Shown here: piece after piece, positions 3,495 through 9,789 of the stretch
Layout: the number at the start of each line of letters is the position of its first letter
Position numbering within the stretch: position 1 is the first letter of the stretch
Source: Cognatishimia sp. 1_MG-2023
GTDB taxonomy: Bacteria > Pseudomonadota > Alphaproteobacteria > Rhodobacterales > Rhodobacteraceae
DNA: 64,000 nucleotides
Reading direction: 5' to 3'
NCBI RefSeq assembly: GCF_030548175.1
Contig: NZ_JAUORX010000001.1
Coordinates: 248,001-312,000, forward strand
Made by a program: the position numbers and the translations under genes
The notes under the pieces: model-generated
What the model saw: the letters and a program-made list of their open reading frames with translations, nothing else
Database searches by the model: none
What the model was told of the DNA's origin: nothing

Positions 3495-4274
3495 TTACAT
3501 CGTCGCGTTCGTCGCGCCGCCATCAAGCAGGATGTTCTGTCCCACCATAAATCCAGCGTGTTGCGAACATAAAAAGGCACAAGCCGCACCAAACTCCTGA
3601 CGCGTGCCGTAACGACCAGCTGGAATAGAAGCAAATCTTTGCTTGCGCGCTTCTTCCACAGAAATCCCCTGCGCTTTGCTCGCCCCAGCATCCAAAGACG
3701 CCGCGCGGTCCGTCGCGTGAATACCTGGTTGCAGATTATTAATCGTAACACCTGAACCGGCCACTTGCCGCGCCGTCCCAGCGACATACCCGGTTAGACC
3801 AGCACGCGCAGAATTCGAAAGCCCCAGAACTGCAATCGGAGATTTGACCGACACAGAGGTGATATTCACCACCCGACCCCAGCCTTTTTCCATCATCCCC
3901 GGTAGCAGTGCCTTCATCAATGCAATTGGCGCCAACATGTTCGCATCCAAAGCCTTGATGAAATCATCACGATCCCAGTCAGACCACATTCCCGGAGGCG
4001 GCCCACCTGCATTTGTCACAAGAATATCAACACCCTGCGACGCAGCCAGTACTGCGTCTTGCCCGTCTGGCGTAGAGACATCCGCAGCAACTGTAACCAC
4101 ATCCACGCCAAATCGAGCACGAATGTCTGCGGCAGCAGCCTCAAGCGCCTCGCTACCACGTGCGTTCATCACCAAATCAACACCAGCTTCAGCCAAAGTT
4201 TCAGCACAACCTAAGCCAAGCCCCTTTGAACTGGCGCAAACCAGCGCCTTTTTCCCCGTGATTCCAAGATCCAT
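3495..4274 (-). CDS. SDR family oxidoreductase with a non-canonical active site
   Basis: 259-residue Rossmann-fold short-chain dehydrogenase. The N-terminal nucleotide loop reads CASSKGLGLG (residues 13-22), followed by NAGG (about 89-92) and NITSVS (about 138). The normal catalytic YxxxK is missing: the aligned stretch reads LSNSARAGLTGY, so the Tyr and Lys appear to be replaced by Ser/Asn and Arg. Such SNxAR variants form a recognisable SDR subgroup often annotated as 3-oxoacyl-ACP reductase-like, but reductase activity should not be assumed. It ends with LLDGGATNATM. The gene precedes alkC in a probable two-gene operon. Substrate unknown. Confidence 0.8.
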   Translation of the reverse strand: MDLGITGKKALVCASSKGLGLGCAETLAEAGVDLVMNARGSEALEAAAADIRARFGVDVVTVAADVSTPDGQDAVLAASQGVDILVTNAGGPPPGMWSDWDRDDFIKALDANMLAPIALMKALLPGMMEKGWGRVVNITSVSVKSPIAVLGLSNSARAGLTGYVAGTARQVAGSGVTINNLQPGIHATDRAASLDAGASKAQGISVEEARKQRFASIPAGRYGTRQEFGAACAFLCSQHAGFMVGQNILLDGGATNATM

Positions 4275-4410
4275 AAAATGCTTCCTTCAATTTGGTCGCA
4301 GCATCACTGCATTTTCACCAACGTGCCAGCAAAATGCCGAGGCCCATCCCTGTTGTTGCCATAATTGGGCAGCATCTTTGACGGAACACAAGACAAAAGG
4401 AAGACTCTCA

Positions 4411-5433
4411 ATGGCCCAAGCGATCCCCCGTCAGGATACAAATGGTCAACAGCTGCCGGTTTACCGCGCGGCTAGCTTTACCGTTGTGAACGGAGCTAAC
4501 CAAGGTGATGAGCTTTCTTTTGCATCTGAACTTATGCTCGATGACATTTACGAGCTGACAGAAGGTGCTATTCCATCGGCTCTGGCCTTTGACGCACTGT
4601 CTGATGGCGCCTTTCGTATTTCCGATTTGTCTTCTGTAGGCCGTCCCGGTGCGACCTTGCACTTGGATTGCTGTGTCACGCTGATGCCCCCAAACGGCGA
4701 AACGGTCGAGGCGATCATTTTGGTTGAGGTCGACACCCGCGGAAACATCCGCGACATTTACCTTCATCCACTCGCACCAATCGCTCCCAAAACGGCCTAT
4801 TCTCTTGTCGGTATTGACCGAGATCACGCACGCCGTCGCATGGCCTTAATCGGCTGCGTGTCATTCACACGCGGCACGCGCATCACCACAGCAACTGGCG
4901 AACAGAAACCAATTGAAAACCTTCAAGTGGGCGATCGTGTCTTAACTCGCGACTCGGGTGTTCAAGAAATTCGTTGGGTTGGCCGATCAACGGTGCGCGC
5001 CACCGGCCCTTTTGCCCCGATTGTCATCAAAGCAGGTGCCATGAACAATATGGGTGACCTCAAAGTAAATCCGGATCACCGCTTATTCGTTTATCAACGC
5101 GAAGACACCGTTGGCGCAGGACAGGCAGAAATTTTGGTCAAAGCCCGCTATTTGGTAAATGGTGAAACTGTCTACTTTCAAGAAGGCGGGTTTATCGAAT
5201 ATTTCCAACTGCTTTTCGATGATCATGAAATCATCTTTGCCGAAGGCATTGCTGCAGAAACCATGATGGTCAATCAAGCTACCCACCCCGTGCTCCCCAA
5301 ATCTCTAGGCGAGAAATTCGCAAGGTCCCAGCCAGGCCTGCCAAACGTCGACACTATCGCTTATGACGTCAAAGAGGCGCTGCTTCGCCATCGCGATGCC
5401 GCAGCACTTTTGCGCCGCGCGTCATCTCGATAA
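4411..5433 (+). CDS. Hint domain-containing protein (stand-alone, Rhodobacteraceae type)
   Basis: 340-residue protein. Residues 1-145 are an uncharacterised N-terminal region; about residues 149-285 form a Hint (hedgehog/intein-like) domain: SFTRGTRITTATGEQKP, IENLQVGDRVLTRDSG, IRWVGR and the block NPDHRLFVYQR. Many Hint proteins have Cys immediately before the Phe of the first block; here that position is Ser151, with Cys149 two residues upstream, so self-cleavage by the standard mechanism is uncertain. The reading frame is open further upstream, but ATG at 4411 is preferred because AAAGGAAG sits just before it and the upstream part is antisense to the SDR gene. No signal peptide is apparent. 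The natural role of these single-Hint proteins is not known. Confidence 0.8.
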   Translation: MAQAIPRQDTNGQQLPVYRAASFTVVNGANQGDELSFASELMLDDIYELTEGAIPSALAFDALSDGAFRISDLSSVGRPGATLHLDCCVTLMPPNGETVEAIILVEVDTRGNIRDIYLHPLAPIAPKTAYSLVGIDRDHARRRMALIGCVSFTRGTRITTATGEQKPIENLQVGDRVLTRDSGVQEIRWVGRSTVRATGPFAPIVIKAGAMNNMGDLKVNPDHRLFVYQREDTVGAGQAEILVKARYLVNGETVYFQEGGFIEYFQLLFDDHEIIFAEGIAAETMMVNQATHPVLPKSLGEKFARSQPGLPNVDTIAYDVKEALLRHRDAAALLRRASSR

Positions 5434-5482: not shown

Positions 5483-7090
5483 ATGTTAGACACCGCCAAC
5501 AACCGCCCCGAATTGCCTGCAGAAATTGCACGCCGCCGCACTTTTGCGATCATTTCGCACCCGGATGCCGGCAAGACAACTCTAACTGAAAAGTTCCTGC
5601 TGTATGGTGGTGCGATTCAGATGGCGGGACAGGTACGTGCCAAGGGCGAAGCGCGCCGTACCCGCTCTGACTTTATGAAAATGGAACAAGACCGCGGCAT
5701 TTCCGTTTCAGCTTCTGCGATGTCCTTTGACTTTGAAGGCTTCCGTTTCAACCTCGTTGACACGCCAGGTCACTCTGACTTTTCCGAAGATACCTATCGG
5801 ACACTAACCGCGGTAGATGCTGCCGTTATGGTAATCGACGGCGCCAAAGGTGTTGAAAGCCAAACGCAAAAGCTTTTCGAAGTATGCCGCCTACGTGATC
5901 TGCCCATCTTAACGTTCTGTAACAAGATGGACCGTGAAAGCCGCGACACATTTGAAATCATTGACGAAATTCAAGAGAATCTTGCAATTGACGTCACTCC
6001 AGCCTCTTGGCCAATTGGCGTTGGTCGTGAATTTGTTGGTTGTTACGATCTACTCCGCGACCGCCTAGAGCTTATGGACCGTGCAGACCGTAACAAAGTG
6101 GCCGAAAGCATAAAAATCAACGGATTAGATGATCCACAACTGGCAGAGCATATTCCTGCAAACCTTCTAGACAAGTTCCTAGAAGAAGTTGAAATGGCCA
6201 AAGAACTCCTACCCGCTCTTGATCCACAGTCTGTCCTCGAAGGGCATATGACTCCGATCTGGTTCGGCTCCGCTATTAACTCCTACGGTGTCCAAGAATT
6301 GATGCATGGCATTGCTAAATTCGGTCCGGAACCACAGGTTCAAAAGGCGTCTCCACGTTCCATTGCCCCCGAAGAAAAGAAAGTCACAGGTTTTGTCTTC
6401 AAGGTCCAGGCCAACATGGACCCAAAGCACCGCGACCGCGTCGCCTTTGTGCGTATGGCCTCCGGCCACTTCAAGCGCGGTATGAAACTGACCCATGTAC
6501 GTTCCAAAAAACCGATGTCTATCACTAACCCTGTGCTCTTCCTCGCGTCAGACCGCGAACTTGCAGAAGAAGCTTGGGCAGGTGACATCATTGGCATTCC
6601 AAACCATGGCCAGCTACGTATTGGTGATACCTTGACCGAAGGCGAAGCAATTCGAGCAACCGGAATTCCATCCTTTGCACCTGAATTGCTGCAAGGCGTT
6701 CGCGCAGGCGATCCGATGAAAGCGAAGCACCTTGAAAAGGCGCTGATGCAATTCGCCGAAGAAGGCGCCGCCAAAGTTTTCAAACCCTCCATCGGCTCCG
6801 GCTTTATTGTTGGCGTTGTTGGAGCATTGCAATTTGAGGTATTGGCCAGCCGGATCGAATTGGAATACGGCCTGCCGGTTCGCTTCGAAGCTAGCCAATT
6901 CACCAGCGCTCGCTGGGTGAGTGGTGAAAAGCAAGCCATTGATAAGTTTACGCAATCAAATGTTCAGCACATTGCTCACGATCACGACGGTGACATCGTT
7001 TACCTAACACGATTGCAATGGGACATTGATCGCGTTGGCAGAGACTATCCAGACGTGAAACTAACCGCTACAAAGGAAATGATGGTCTAG
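5483..7090 (+). CDS. prfC: Peptide chain release factor 3
   Basis: 535-residue translational GTPase that ejects RF1/RF2 from the ribosome after termination. G1 reads HPDAGKTT (26-33), G3 DTPGH (93-97) and G4 NKMD (147-150); the RF3-specific stretches RGISVSASAMSFDFEG and the EF-G-like domains II/III follow, and the total length matches the family. The frame is open upstream to 5363, but that part overlaps the end of the Hint gene; ATG at 5483 gives the expected N-terminus. No good Shine-Dalgarno sequence is visible before this start, so translation may rely on readthrough coupling or another signal. It ends with TAG about 40 bp before the glycosyltransferase pair. Confidence 0.95.
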   Translation: MLDTANNRPELPAEIARRRTFAIISHPDAGKTTLTEKFLLYGGAIQMAGQVRAKGEARRTRSDFMKMEQDRGISVSASAMSFDFEGFRFNLVDTPGHSDFSEDTYRTLTAVDAAVMVIDGAKGVESQTQKLFEVCRLRDLPILTFCNKMDRESRDTFEIIDEIQENLAIDVTPASWPIGVGREFVGCYDLLRDRLELMDRADRNKVAESIKINGLDDPQLAEHIPANLLDKFLEEVEMAKELLPALDPQSVLEGHMTPIWFGSAINSYGVQELMHGIAKFGPEPQVQKASPRSIAPEEKKVTGFVFKVQANMDPKHRDRVAFVRMASGHFKRGMKLTHVRSKKPMSITNPVLFLASDRELAEEAWAGDIIGIPNHGQLRIGDTLTEGEAIRATGIPSFAPELLQGVRAGDPMKAKHLEKALMQFAEEGAAKVFKPSIGSGFIVGVVGALQFEVLASRIELEYGLPVRFEASQFTSARWVSGEKQAIDKFTQSNVQHIAHDHDGDIVYLTRLQWDIDRVGRDYPDVKLTATKEMMV

Positions 7091-7132: not shown

Positions 7133-8827
7133 ATGGCAAAAAACGAGACTTATCCAGGCGGCTATGACGCCATGATGCAACGCGTTCAATCACGTCGCGA
7201 CCCCTTGGTTTATGCCGAGGGCGAGTCTCTGCCATCACTCGATGAGGATCTAACACCACTCCTCACACGTCCGACAACAATGCATCTATCTGACAGTGGC
7301 TCGACCTTCGCAGGAAAGCGTCGTGCGTTGCAAAAGGAATTCGAAGGCCAGCCAGAGCTTTTGATGCTTCACGGCCTTGTAACCGCGAACCTCCGCAAAA
7401 ATGATTTTCCTGCGCATGCGCCCGCGCTTTATCAAAAAATCTGGGCAGAGCACGGTGAGTTTCTCATACAGAACTTACCACTACGTTGGCTCGTGTCAGC
7501 CGTCACCACTTTTGGCGACCAAGGCATAAACGAAGCACAGCGCCATATCGGCCGTTCGATGATGCTGATGTTTGGGATGATCAAACTTTATGAGTTTGAG
7601 CGACTTTATTCGGGACATCATCCGTGTGAGACATATCCAACCACCAACAAAATTAACGCGCCGCTACCACTCGGCATCCCATCCTATTCACTTATCGGGG
7701 GCGGCTTAGACGTAGCCATCCTTACACGACTTTGGAGCGACGCAGACGAAGATCCAATCGTGAAACCGCTAGCGCGCCACCTGCTAAACGAAATCAACAC
7801 CGACCCAGACACGTTGTTTCGGCGCCTACGTGACATGGCCGAAGACCGCAAGCAACGCAAAGCAACAAAGAACACCAACCCAATCCCTGTGCCGCCACGG
7901 CATATCAAACGTGACCCAAAAACAATCTCCTGGGGTGTTGCAACCACATTAAATGAAGATTTGGATCAAGCGGTTTGCTTTACGGCCCATCATCTTGATT
8001 TGGGCGCTGATGCCGTGGCTTTGTATGCGGATAACCCACATATTGTTCCCCACGAGCTTGCTCATCACCCTCGGGTGCACTTGGTTGTATGCGACGATAC
8101 AGTTATCTCTGCAGAGCAACGCAAAAACATGTCAACGCGGAACATGCGTAAAGTGTTTTACTTCAACAAAGCCCGTCGCAACCTGTCTCTGGACTGGCTC
8201 GCGATGCTTGATACCGATGAGTATTTAATCCCGAACGATCCAATCAAGGACATTCTGTCTCAAGTGCCCGCTGATGCGGCTTTCATGAAAATTCCCGTTG
8301 TTGAGCAATTCGCAGATAGCCCAACGCTCTTTCGCCCACCAGCATCAACATATGAAATGGATCCAAACCTACGTGCGGACCTTTTTCCACTATTTGGAAA
8401 TTACCTTCCCGATCTTATCCTTGGCCAGCCGGACCCGCGCCTATTCGTCCGTGCGCGCCTAAGCAACATTCGCGTTGCGAACTTCATCGTTAAGCACAAT
8501 AAACGGATCGCGACTAACGCCTTTTTTCCTGAAAACATGGTCGTGGCCCATTGTCATGCAGATAGCTTCAACAGCTTTATAAACGCACTTCCACGTCGCA
8601 TTGATCAAGGGTACAGCCGCCACAAAGAAGGTGCGATTAGCATTAACTCCGCACTGGAAGCTGCTGACAAGCAATATAAAAAACCAGAGCTTCAACGTTT
8701 TTTCAACGAAATCGCCGTTGCACGACCTGAAGTAGTCAAAGCGCTTGCCGCACACAACGTCTTGCGCACAATTGACTTCGATATTGAAAAGAAGATCGAA
8801 AGGATCATCCAGGAGTTCCACGTATGA
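7133..8827 (+). CDS. Two-part protein: helical N-terminal domain plus glycosyltransferase (family 2/92-like)
   Basis: 564-residue protein. About residues 1-260 show no family I recognise; they are mostly helical and contain SGHHPCETYPTTNKINAPLP. About residues 265-560 form a nucleotide-sugar glycosyltransferase domain of the Glyco_tranf_2_4 type: WGVATTLNEDLDQAVCFTAH, HLDLGADAVALYADN and a DxD metal-binding motif at D360-D362 (LDTDEYL). No signal peptide or membrane segment is seen, so it probably acts in the cytoplasm on a surface polysaccharide or glycan precursor; the acceptor is unknown. Its stop overlaps the start of the next glycosyltransferase gene (ATGA), which implies coupled translation and related roles. 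Confidence 0.75.
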   Translation: MAKNETYPGGYDAMMQRVQSRRDPLVYAEGESLPSLDEDLTPLLTRPTTMHLSDSGSTFAGKRRALQKEFEGQPELLMLHGLVTANLRKNDFPAHAPALYQKIWAEHGEFLIQNLPLRWLVSAVTTFGDQGINEAQRHIGRSMMLMFGMIKLYEFERLYSGHHPCETYPTTNKINAPLPLGIPSYSLIGGGLDVAILTRLWSDADEDPIVKPLARHLLNEINTDPDTLFRRLRDMAEDRKQRKATKNTNPIPVPPRHIKRDPKTISWGVATTLNEDLDQAVCFTAHHLDLGADAVALYADNPHIVPHELAHHPRVHLVVCDDTVISAEQRKNMSTRNMRKVFYFNKARRNLSLDWLAMLDTDEYLIPNDPIKDILSQVPADAAFMKIPVVEQFADSPTLFRPPASTYEMDPNLRADLFPLFGNYLPDLILGQPDPRLFVRARLSNIRVANFIVKHNKRIATNAFFPENMVVAHCHADSFNSFINALPRRIDQGYSRHKEGAISINSALEAADKQYKKPELQRFFNEIAVARPEVVKALAAHNVLRTIDFDIEKKIERIIQEFHV

Positions 8828-9789
8828 CCTCGACCAAATGGGGCATCGTTTCCACTATCAAAGCGCCCACTTCAGAGGTCCTCTCCTTTGTCGCTTACCA
8901 TCTTGAACTCGGTGCAGATCATATCACGATCTTCTTAGATGACAGCAACCCAAAGACCGCCAAAGCGCTCGCAGACCATCCTAGCGTCACTTGCATTTGT
9001 ACTGACAGTAAATATTGGGACAATTACTTAGGCCGCGTTCCTAAGAAACATCAGCAACGCCAAACACGAAACGCAACTCGTTGCTATCGAAATTCAAACG
9101 GTCTTGATTGGGTTGCCCACATTGATGTTGATGAATTCCTTTGCACAGACTTAGACATTCGAACAATTCTGGCAAACCAGCCTAAGGACTTCGATGTTTT
9201 GCGCATGCGCCCCTTTGAATCTCTTTGTAGAGAAGATGATGCAGCGGACGACAGCGCAACCGTACTATGCAAAGCCAAACTACCAAGCGGCTCTAACGCT
9301 GCCAGATTGGAAAGAGAACTCTATCCTGAATTTGGCGGTTTCTTCAAAAGCGGATTTGTAAGCCACACTGTTGGTAAGATCTTCGTTCGAACCGGTTTAC
9401 CAAATGTGGAAATCCGTATTCACCGGGCTTTTGACCAAAAAACCAAGTCACCTTTGCAAAATCGTGACCTCGCCAGCATCGAGCTGTGCCACCGCCACGT
9501 CAAAAGCTGGGAAAAATGGCTGGAGATTATGGAGTTCCGGCTCGCCAATGGCTCCTATCGCGCAGAGCTCGAGCAATCAATTGATCCGGCTTCTGGACGT
9601 ATGTCACGCCACAATCTGTTTTCTGCTCTGACCGAAGACGGCACGGATGGGTTACGCGCATTTTTCGAAGAAGTCTGCCTAGCCACGCCTAAATTGGTTG
9701 ATAAGCTCAAAGAGCACGGCCTTTTCCGTGCCTATGATTTAGAACTTTCTTCAAAGTTATCGAAACACTTCCCTAGTTTCGGCAAATAG
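8824..9789 (+). CDS. Glycosyltransferase family 2-like protein
   Basis: 321-residue glycosyltransferase, a paralogue of the C-terminal half of the preceding protein: WGIVSTIKAPTSEVLSFVAY, HLELGADHITIFLDDSNP, and a DxD at D101-D103 (HIDVDEFL). The C-terminal part contains a conserved His-rich turn (IELCHRHVKSWEKW) similar to the matching HCHADSF segment of its neighbour. It starts at ATG 8824 inside the stop of the upstream gene (ATGA overlap). No secretion signal. It probably transfers a sugar onto the same or a linked glycan; donor and acceptor are unknown. A weak hairpin (GTTTC/GAAAC) follows the stop at 9791-9807 but lacks a T run. Confidence 0.8.
   Translation: MTSTKWGIVSTIKAPTSEVLSFVAYHLELGADHITIFLDDSNPKTAKALADHPSVTCICTDSKYWDNYLGRVPKKHQQRQTRNATRCYRNSNGLDWVAHIDVDEFLCTDLDIRTILANQPKDFDVLRMRPFESLCREDDAADDSATVLCKAKLPSGSNAARLERELYPEFGGFFKSGFVSHTVGKIFVRTGLPNVEIRIHRAFDQKTKSPLQNRDLASIELCHRHVKSWEKWLEIMEFRLANGSYRAELEQSIDPASGRMSRHNLFSALTEDGTDGLRAFFEEVCLATPKLVDKLKEHGLFRAYDLELSSKLSKHFPSFGK

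Follow-up and report, generated by a model that had tools for sequence, protein, structure and literature searches.

The best structural matches to the model of the protein described here, P0001, were bacterial intein-like (BIL) domains (6y75, Z 14.9; 2lwy, Z 14.7). BIL domains are described as self-cleaving in excerpts of PMC5874633. Type B domains and P0001 both lack the His-Asn of block G, whereas the nucleophile of the P0001 family is not Cys and is missing in part of the family. The C-terminal His-Asn of type A BIL domains is likewise absent from the P0001 family, which has Glu283 and Ser or Thr284 where our alignment places block G. In Hedgehog, the Hint-containing Hog domain follows an N-terminal domain, as the Hint domain does in P0001, and its structure (1at0) matches the model with Z 12.1. 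The Hog domain needs its Cys; opposite residue 258 of 1at0, which we take to be the nucleophile Cys258, P0001 carries Ser151. Class 1 inteins have Cys1 or Ser1, and P0001 has Ser151 at residue 1, but a Ser at this position is missing in 46 of 231 orthologues; their C-terminal His-Asn and the nucleophile that follows have no counterpart in the P0001 family when block G is placed by our alignment. Class 3 inteins, like P0001, are Hint domains without Cys1, and in excerpts of PMC4031507 they are described as using a conserved Cys at block F:4. Such chemistry was ruled out for the P0001 family, in which F:4, as assigned in this analysis, is mostly Gln or Ser, with no Cys among its changes. The Vint proteins, a eukaryotic group according to excerpts of PMC2362128, share the Hint fold (8r2c, Z 11.7); the Pfam Vint model scored 12.9 on P0001, under its cut-off of 27. 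The profile family of P0001 is that of the Rhodobacteraceae Hint_2 proteins (PF13403), and the fold is common to both. In nearly all other Hint_2 proteins the nucleophile site is Cys and blocks B and F each contain His, whereas the P0001 family lacks the Cys and rarely has the block-F His. Two of the others that were scanned (L001, L041) carry RTX repeats; the P0001 family has another N-terminal domain. PF13403 is named in two papers, one of which (PMC12487129, excerpts) reports Hint and RTX domains to be over-represented in strongly responding Rhodobacteraceae. No paper on the P0001 family was among the literature matches listed.

P0001 is encoded in the window, that is, the whole stretch of 64,000 nucleotides from Cognatishimia sp. 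1_MG-2023 that was analysed (Table 1). An RBS-like AAGGAAG at 4398-4404 stands ahead of its ATG. The original prediction, an unfamiliar N-terminal domain joined to a Hint fold, was borne out by Pfam: Hint_2 scored 133.7 bits, passing the cut-off of 28.4, and residues 1-140 gave no match at E<=0.1. Comparison with NCBIfam matched no known family, PHROGs gave two weak matches (best E 0.0015), and the best sequence match in the PDB had E 0.12. The motif GCVSFTRGT comprises Cys149, Val150, Ser151 and Phe152, so that Ser directly precedes Phe with Cys two residues earlier, as had been read from the sequence; other Hint_2 proteins have Cys-Phe there. The expectation that such genes are numerous also held, the source genome containing 13 Hint_2 matches, the P0001 gene among them. 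In two further Hint_2 genes of this genome (L012, L013) both the Cys and the His are missing, the aligned residues being Ala/Ala and Ser/Gln, and hence more than one pseudo-Hint may exist.

Table 1. Features at the P0001 locus, in window coordinates
Feature	Position	Strand	Basis or remark
SDR-like oxidoreductase, divergent neighbour	3495..4274	-	Matched by many SDR models; those listed all stay under their own cut-offs
CDS, 340-aa protein with N-terminal domain and Hint_2 (P0001)	4411..5433	+	ATG start; ORF, translation, Pfam
N-terminal domain, ~residues 1-136	4411..4818	+	Beta-rich in model; no Pfam match; alone at this locus in three further genomes
Cys149 codon, two residues ahead of nucleophile site	4855..4857	+	Cys in 191/231 orthologues
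Hint_2 domain, residues 151-286	4861..5268	+	PF13403; fold predicted as Hint (Z up to 14.9)
Ser151 codon, at the canonical position of the nucleophile (residue 1 of inteins)	4861..4863	+	Ser 185, Ala 39, Arg 4, Tyr 3, Cys 0 (n=231)
His223 codon, block-B histidine	5077..5079	+	His in 203/231 orthologues
Gln266 codon, probable block-F position 4	5206..5208	+	F:4 placed by motif alignment made in this analysis
prfC (release factor 3), downstream neighbour, same strand	5483..7090	+	

The gene belongs to an old family within the Rhodobacteraceae. The protein query found a match at E<=1e-50 in 248 of 394 Rhodobacteraceae genomes (393 genera), and a profile of diverged members found one at E<=1e-70 in 254; with the best five candidates scored per genome, the gene was single-copy in every matching genome. 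Seven of the nine genomes of the window's genus contain the full gene. Outside the family, none of 24 genomes of the same class matched at E<=1e-3, and a class-wide sample of 289 genomes, with at most seven candidates scored in each, yielded three matches, all in Rhodobacteraceae. Residues were counted from 261 scored loci, of which 19 under 300 bits (best 179) were classed as other Hint_2 and 11 were dropped as duplicates. The resulting 231 orthologues, several of which share a genus, include two broken by a frameshift (L062, L027; a few L062 columns are out of frame), while five further Hint-bearing copies of the locus (L323-L327, one at 323 bits) and three copies with the N-terminal domain only stand outside the count. 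An IMG/VR contig classed as viral, IMGVR_UViG_3300037601_000149 (L262, L305), carries an orthologue and may be host DNA; there was otherwise no sign of a phage origin of the gene, which was rejected.

Of the 229 fetched loci having >=900 bp upstream, 225 have the SDR-like gene there in divergent orientation, and of the 227 having >=1.2 kb downstream, 174 have prfC there on the same strand; the other 53 contain no prfC within the stretch searched, which for about half was only ~1.5 kb. When the 1.2-kb filter was lifted (n=176), the gap to prfC was 250 bp or less in 85 loci and above 1 kb in 46. This arrangement suggests a link of P0001 to prfC or the SDR gene by proximity only. Among 11 loci from genomes without the gene, six have the SDR gene and prfC in the stretch searched, with no Hint match between them. 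Past prfC, the window contains two adjoining open reading frames (7133-8827 and 8824-9789) that overlap by 4 bp.

A first structural model, built with 20 similar rows, stayed below pLDDT 50 over much of the Hint half and gave only weak matches for the fold of the N-terminal domain (Z 3.5 or less). A second model, of residues 130-340 with more diverse rows, reached pLDDT 82.3; its best 50 structural matches were inteins, BIL, Hedgehog or Vint proteins, with Z 11.2-14.9. The C-terminal half of P0001 is accordingly modelled as a Hint horseshoe. Alignments that start at model residue 22 (Ser151) pair it with intein residue 1 (284 in the precursor numbering of 1um2) or with Hedgehog residue 258; that to the NMR entry 7cfv starts at model residue 21, opposite its residue 1. 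The structural alignment thus upholds the earlier placement of Ser151 at the canonical nucleophile spot. A shifted block, with a universally kept Cys149 in that spot, was ruled out: the alignment is gap-free at 149-151, the structural register sets 151 at residue 1, and Cys149 occurs in 191 of the 231 orthologues.

None of the 231 orthologues has Cys or Thr at position 151. All are gap-free at 149-151, and 57 of 59 other Hint_2 proteins have Cys at 151, which excludes an accident of sampling or sequencing. Where Cys149 is replaced, Ser (19), Pro (7), Thr (4), Ala (3) or other residues (seven) are found; His223 gives way to Gln (22), Phe (4), Asn (1) or Leu (1). Position 266 is Gln in 161, Ser in 39 and His in 13. 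Cys149, Ser151 and His223 occur together in 159 orthologues and none of the three in 17. At the end of the fold, Glu283 is present in 230 and Ser or Thr284 in all 231. Simple parsimony on a midpoint-rooted tree, from which columns 149, 151, 220, 223 and 266 had been removed, gave 18 losses of Ser151 (14 to Ala, three to Arg, one to Tyr) and three returns from Ala to Ser, none to Cys; Cys149 was lost 17 times (seven times to Ser) and His223 eight times. Sites 149, 151, 223 and 266 changed 26, 21, 9 and 14 times, compared with 30 for the median Hint site. The original prediction had left three outcomes open, namely cleavage by Ser, cleavage by the shifted Cys, or its loss; the 18 losses of Ser151 and the absence of any return to Cys favour the last.

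The control set consisted of 59 other Hint_2 proteins: this genome supplied 12, other fetched loci seven, and a hand selection down the match list of P0001 the remaining 40, so that all were chosen from P0001's own matches or the Hint_2 matches of this genome. Cys at 151 and His at 223 are each present in 57, and the two that lack the Cys also lack the His. At site 266 of block F, 57 of the controls have His, compared with 13 of the 231 orthologues, 200 of which have Gln or Ser. Twenty sites are at least 93% conserved in the controls. At four of these the control residue collapses in the orthologues, to 0 of 231 at 151, 6 at 160, 13 at 266 and 54 at 212; at three (284, 220, 223) it is intermediate, in 192-203; and at the other 13, including G174, R224, H272 and E283, it is kept in 205-231. 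The collapse occurs despite the closer likeness of the orthologues, whose mean identity is 62%, compared with 44% for the controls; the Fisher p-values for the contrast ignore relatedness. The conservation ranks among the 165 Hint sites show the same pattern: 151, 223, 220 and 266 rank 69, 59, 66 and 91 in the orthologues and 10, 13, 3 and 14 in the controls, while R224 (3 and 9), H272 (9 and 7) and E283 (8 and 8) stay near the top in both. In 18 orthologues that have neither Ser151 nor His223, 11 of 12 listed fold residues are present in all 18 and the twelfth, F152, in 17. Judged from these alignments, the active site has been hit hardest, along with sites 160 and 212, for which we know of no catalytic role and which changed as strongly as the active-site positions. 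Relative to other Hint_2 proteins the active site is relaxed but not released, since sites 149, 151, 223 and 266 change less than the median Hint site and His223 persists in 203 of 231 orthologues. Cys-type Hint_2 genes were also seen on IMG/VR contigs of ~33-41 kb (L304, L306, L307, L308), possibly as prophage cargo.

In five close pairs the Hint domain showed dN of 0.003-0.089 and dS of 0.157-2.5. For pairs 80-99.5% alike with dS of 0.1-2, the median Hint dN/dS was 0.141 in 155 pairs with Cys149, Ser151 and His223, 0.206 in 12 pairs without Ser151 but with the His, and 0.179 in eight other pairs; the largest pairwise value was 0.385. These ratios point to purifying selection on the Hint domain in the close pairs sampled. 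In the doubly degenerate class, without Ser151 and His223, no pair was close enough to qualify.

The N-terminal domain was found in 258 of the 394 Rhodobacteraceae genomes, with one match in each except three (at most ten candidates scored). In three genomes it stands alone between the SDR gene and prfC, as open frames of 141 and 161 residues at L320 and L321, in the window's genus, and of 215 residues at L322, in another genus. At L320 and L321 ~54 bp separate the N-only gene from prfC, and a search there for Hint remnants gave chance-level matches only. These two loci probably share a single loss of the Hint domain, so that the three genomes represent two lineages. Over 113 codons their N-only copies share 67% identity (dN 0.224, dS 1.6), an estimate that is rough, given the dS of 0.34 for prfC in this pair. 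The genes with the N-terminal domain alone could represent remnants. The five further diverged copies (L323-L327) have C/S/L, D/I/H, M/S/Y, L/Q/H and S/A/Q at residues 149/151/223.

In the best reading of these comparisons, the family is an exapted pseudo-Hint, mostly or wholly non-cleaving, and P0001 itself is probably a non-cleaving scaffold protein of this kind, inherited at one Rhodobacteraceae locus. Its C-terminal domain would descend from cysteine-dependent Hint_2 domains. The nucleophile Cys would have been replaced in the family, most often by Ser, and the block-F His mostly lost; because other Hint_2 proteins have the Cys, its loss would most simply lie at the base of the family. With no cleavage the protein would stay full length, and the Hint horseshoe, instead of cutting itself, would give the N-terminal domain a scaffold or a binding module. 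Contact might be made through conserved residues specific to the family, such as R196/A197/G199, Y228-Q229-R230 after block B, and E278. The non-cleaving reading draws on the absence of Cys from position 151, the Ala, Arg or Tyr found there in 46 of 231 orthologues, the repeated losses of Ser151 with the fold residues kept, the contrast with the controls at the active-site positions, the predicted Hint fold, the purifying selection in close pairs and the genomes that keep the N-terminal domain without the Hint domain. Counter to it are the 159 orthologues with all three of Cys149, Ser151 and His223, the three returns from Ala to Ser, the slower change of sites 149, 151, 223 and 266 than of the median Hint site, and the equally strong change at sites 160 and 212. 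The wider scenario of family-wide exaptation, in which a self-cleaving Hint was retired at the origin of the family and its fold, given a new conserved surface, was put to use as a scaffold before being shed in two or more lineages (three genomes) where the N-terminal domain alone was kept, is favoured by a narrow measure only.

For the majority of orthologues, a working Ser151 is a serious rival, if overall an improbable one. An N-O acyl shift at Val150-Ser151 would free the N-terminal domain in a Hedgehog-like manner, and the lineages with Ala, Arg or Tyr would have lost activity later. Ser1 is accepted as an intein nucleophile in excerpts of PMC4031507, the structural register places Ser151 at residue 1, and Ser151 and His223 occur together in 175 of 231 orthologues; the slow change of sites 151 and 223 relative to the median Hint site and the three returns to Ser fit as well. 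The 18 losses with an intact set of fold residues, the lack of any Cys or Thr at 151 and the substitution of the block-F His by Gln or Ser in 200 orthologues argue against it.

It is unlikely that the nucleophile moved two residues upstream, with Cys149 performing the acyl shift at 148-149. Strand residues i and i-2 point the same way, Cys149 is retained in 22 of the 28 orthologues that lack Ser151 but have His223, and the seven losses to Ser lead to another possible nucleophile. In the other ten losses, however, Cys gave way to Phe, Leu, Val, Gln, Met, Thr or Ala, and where Ser had replaced it, Pro, Thr or Asn followed; Cys149 ranks 79 of 165 Hint sites in conservation, and in the fold the active-site position is taken by residue 151 instead of 149. 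Slightly less probable still is that the protein does not cleave and Cys149 serves as a thiol with a regulatory or structural (redox or metal) task. Its partial conservation, the second Cys at position 87 in 110 of 231 orthologues and the disulphide control reported in abstracts for some inteins would suit such a role, but neither Cys is universal. That the gene is decaying without function is hardly credible, for although the frameshift-split copies and the N-only or strongly diverged copies in some genomes could be taken that way, the gene occurs in 254 of 394 genomes, dN/dS is low in the sampled pairs and fold residues are nearly invariant.

If P0001 and its orthologues are indeed exapted pseudo-Hints, the Hint fold, which is usually discussed as self-cutting, can persist for a non-catalytic job, and not every Hint_2 gene should be annotated as self-processing. 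The family would then offer a defined target: one gene at one locus, shared by the majority of the genera sampled in a major marine family.
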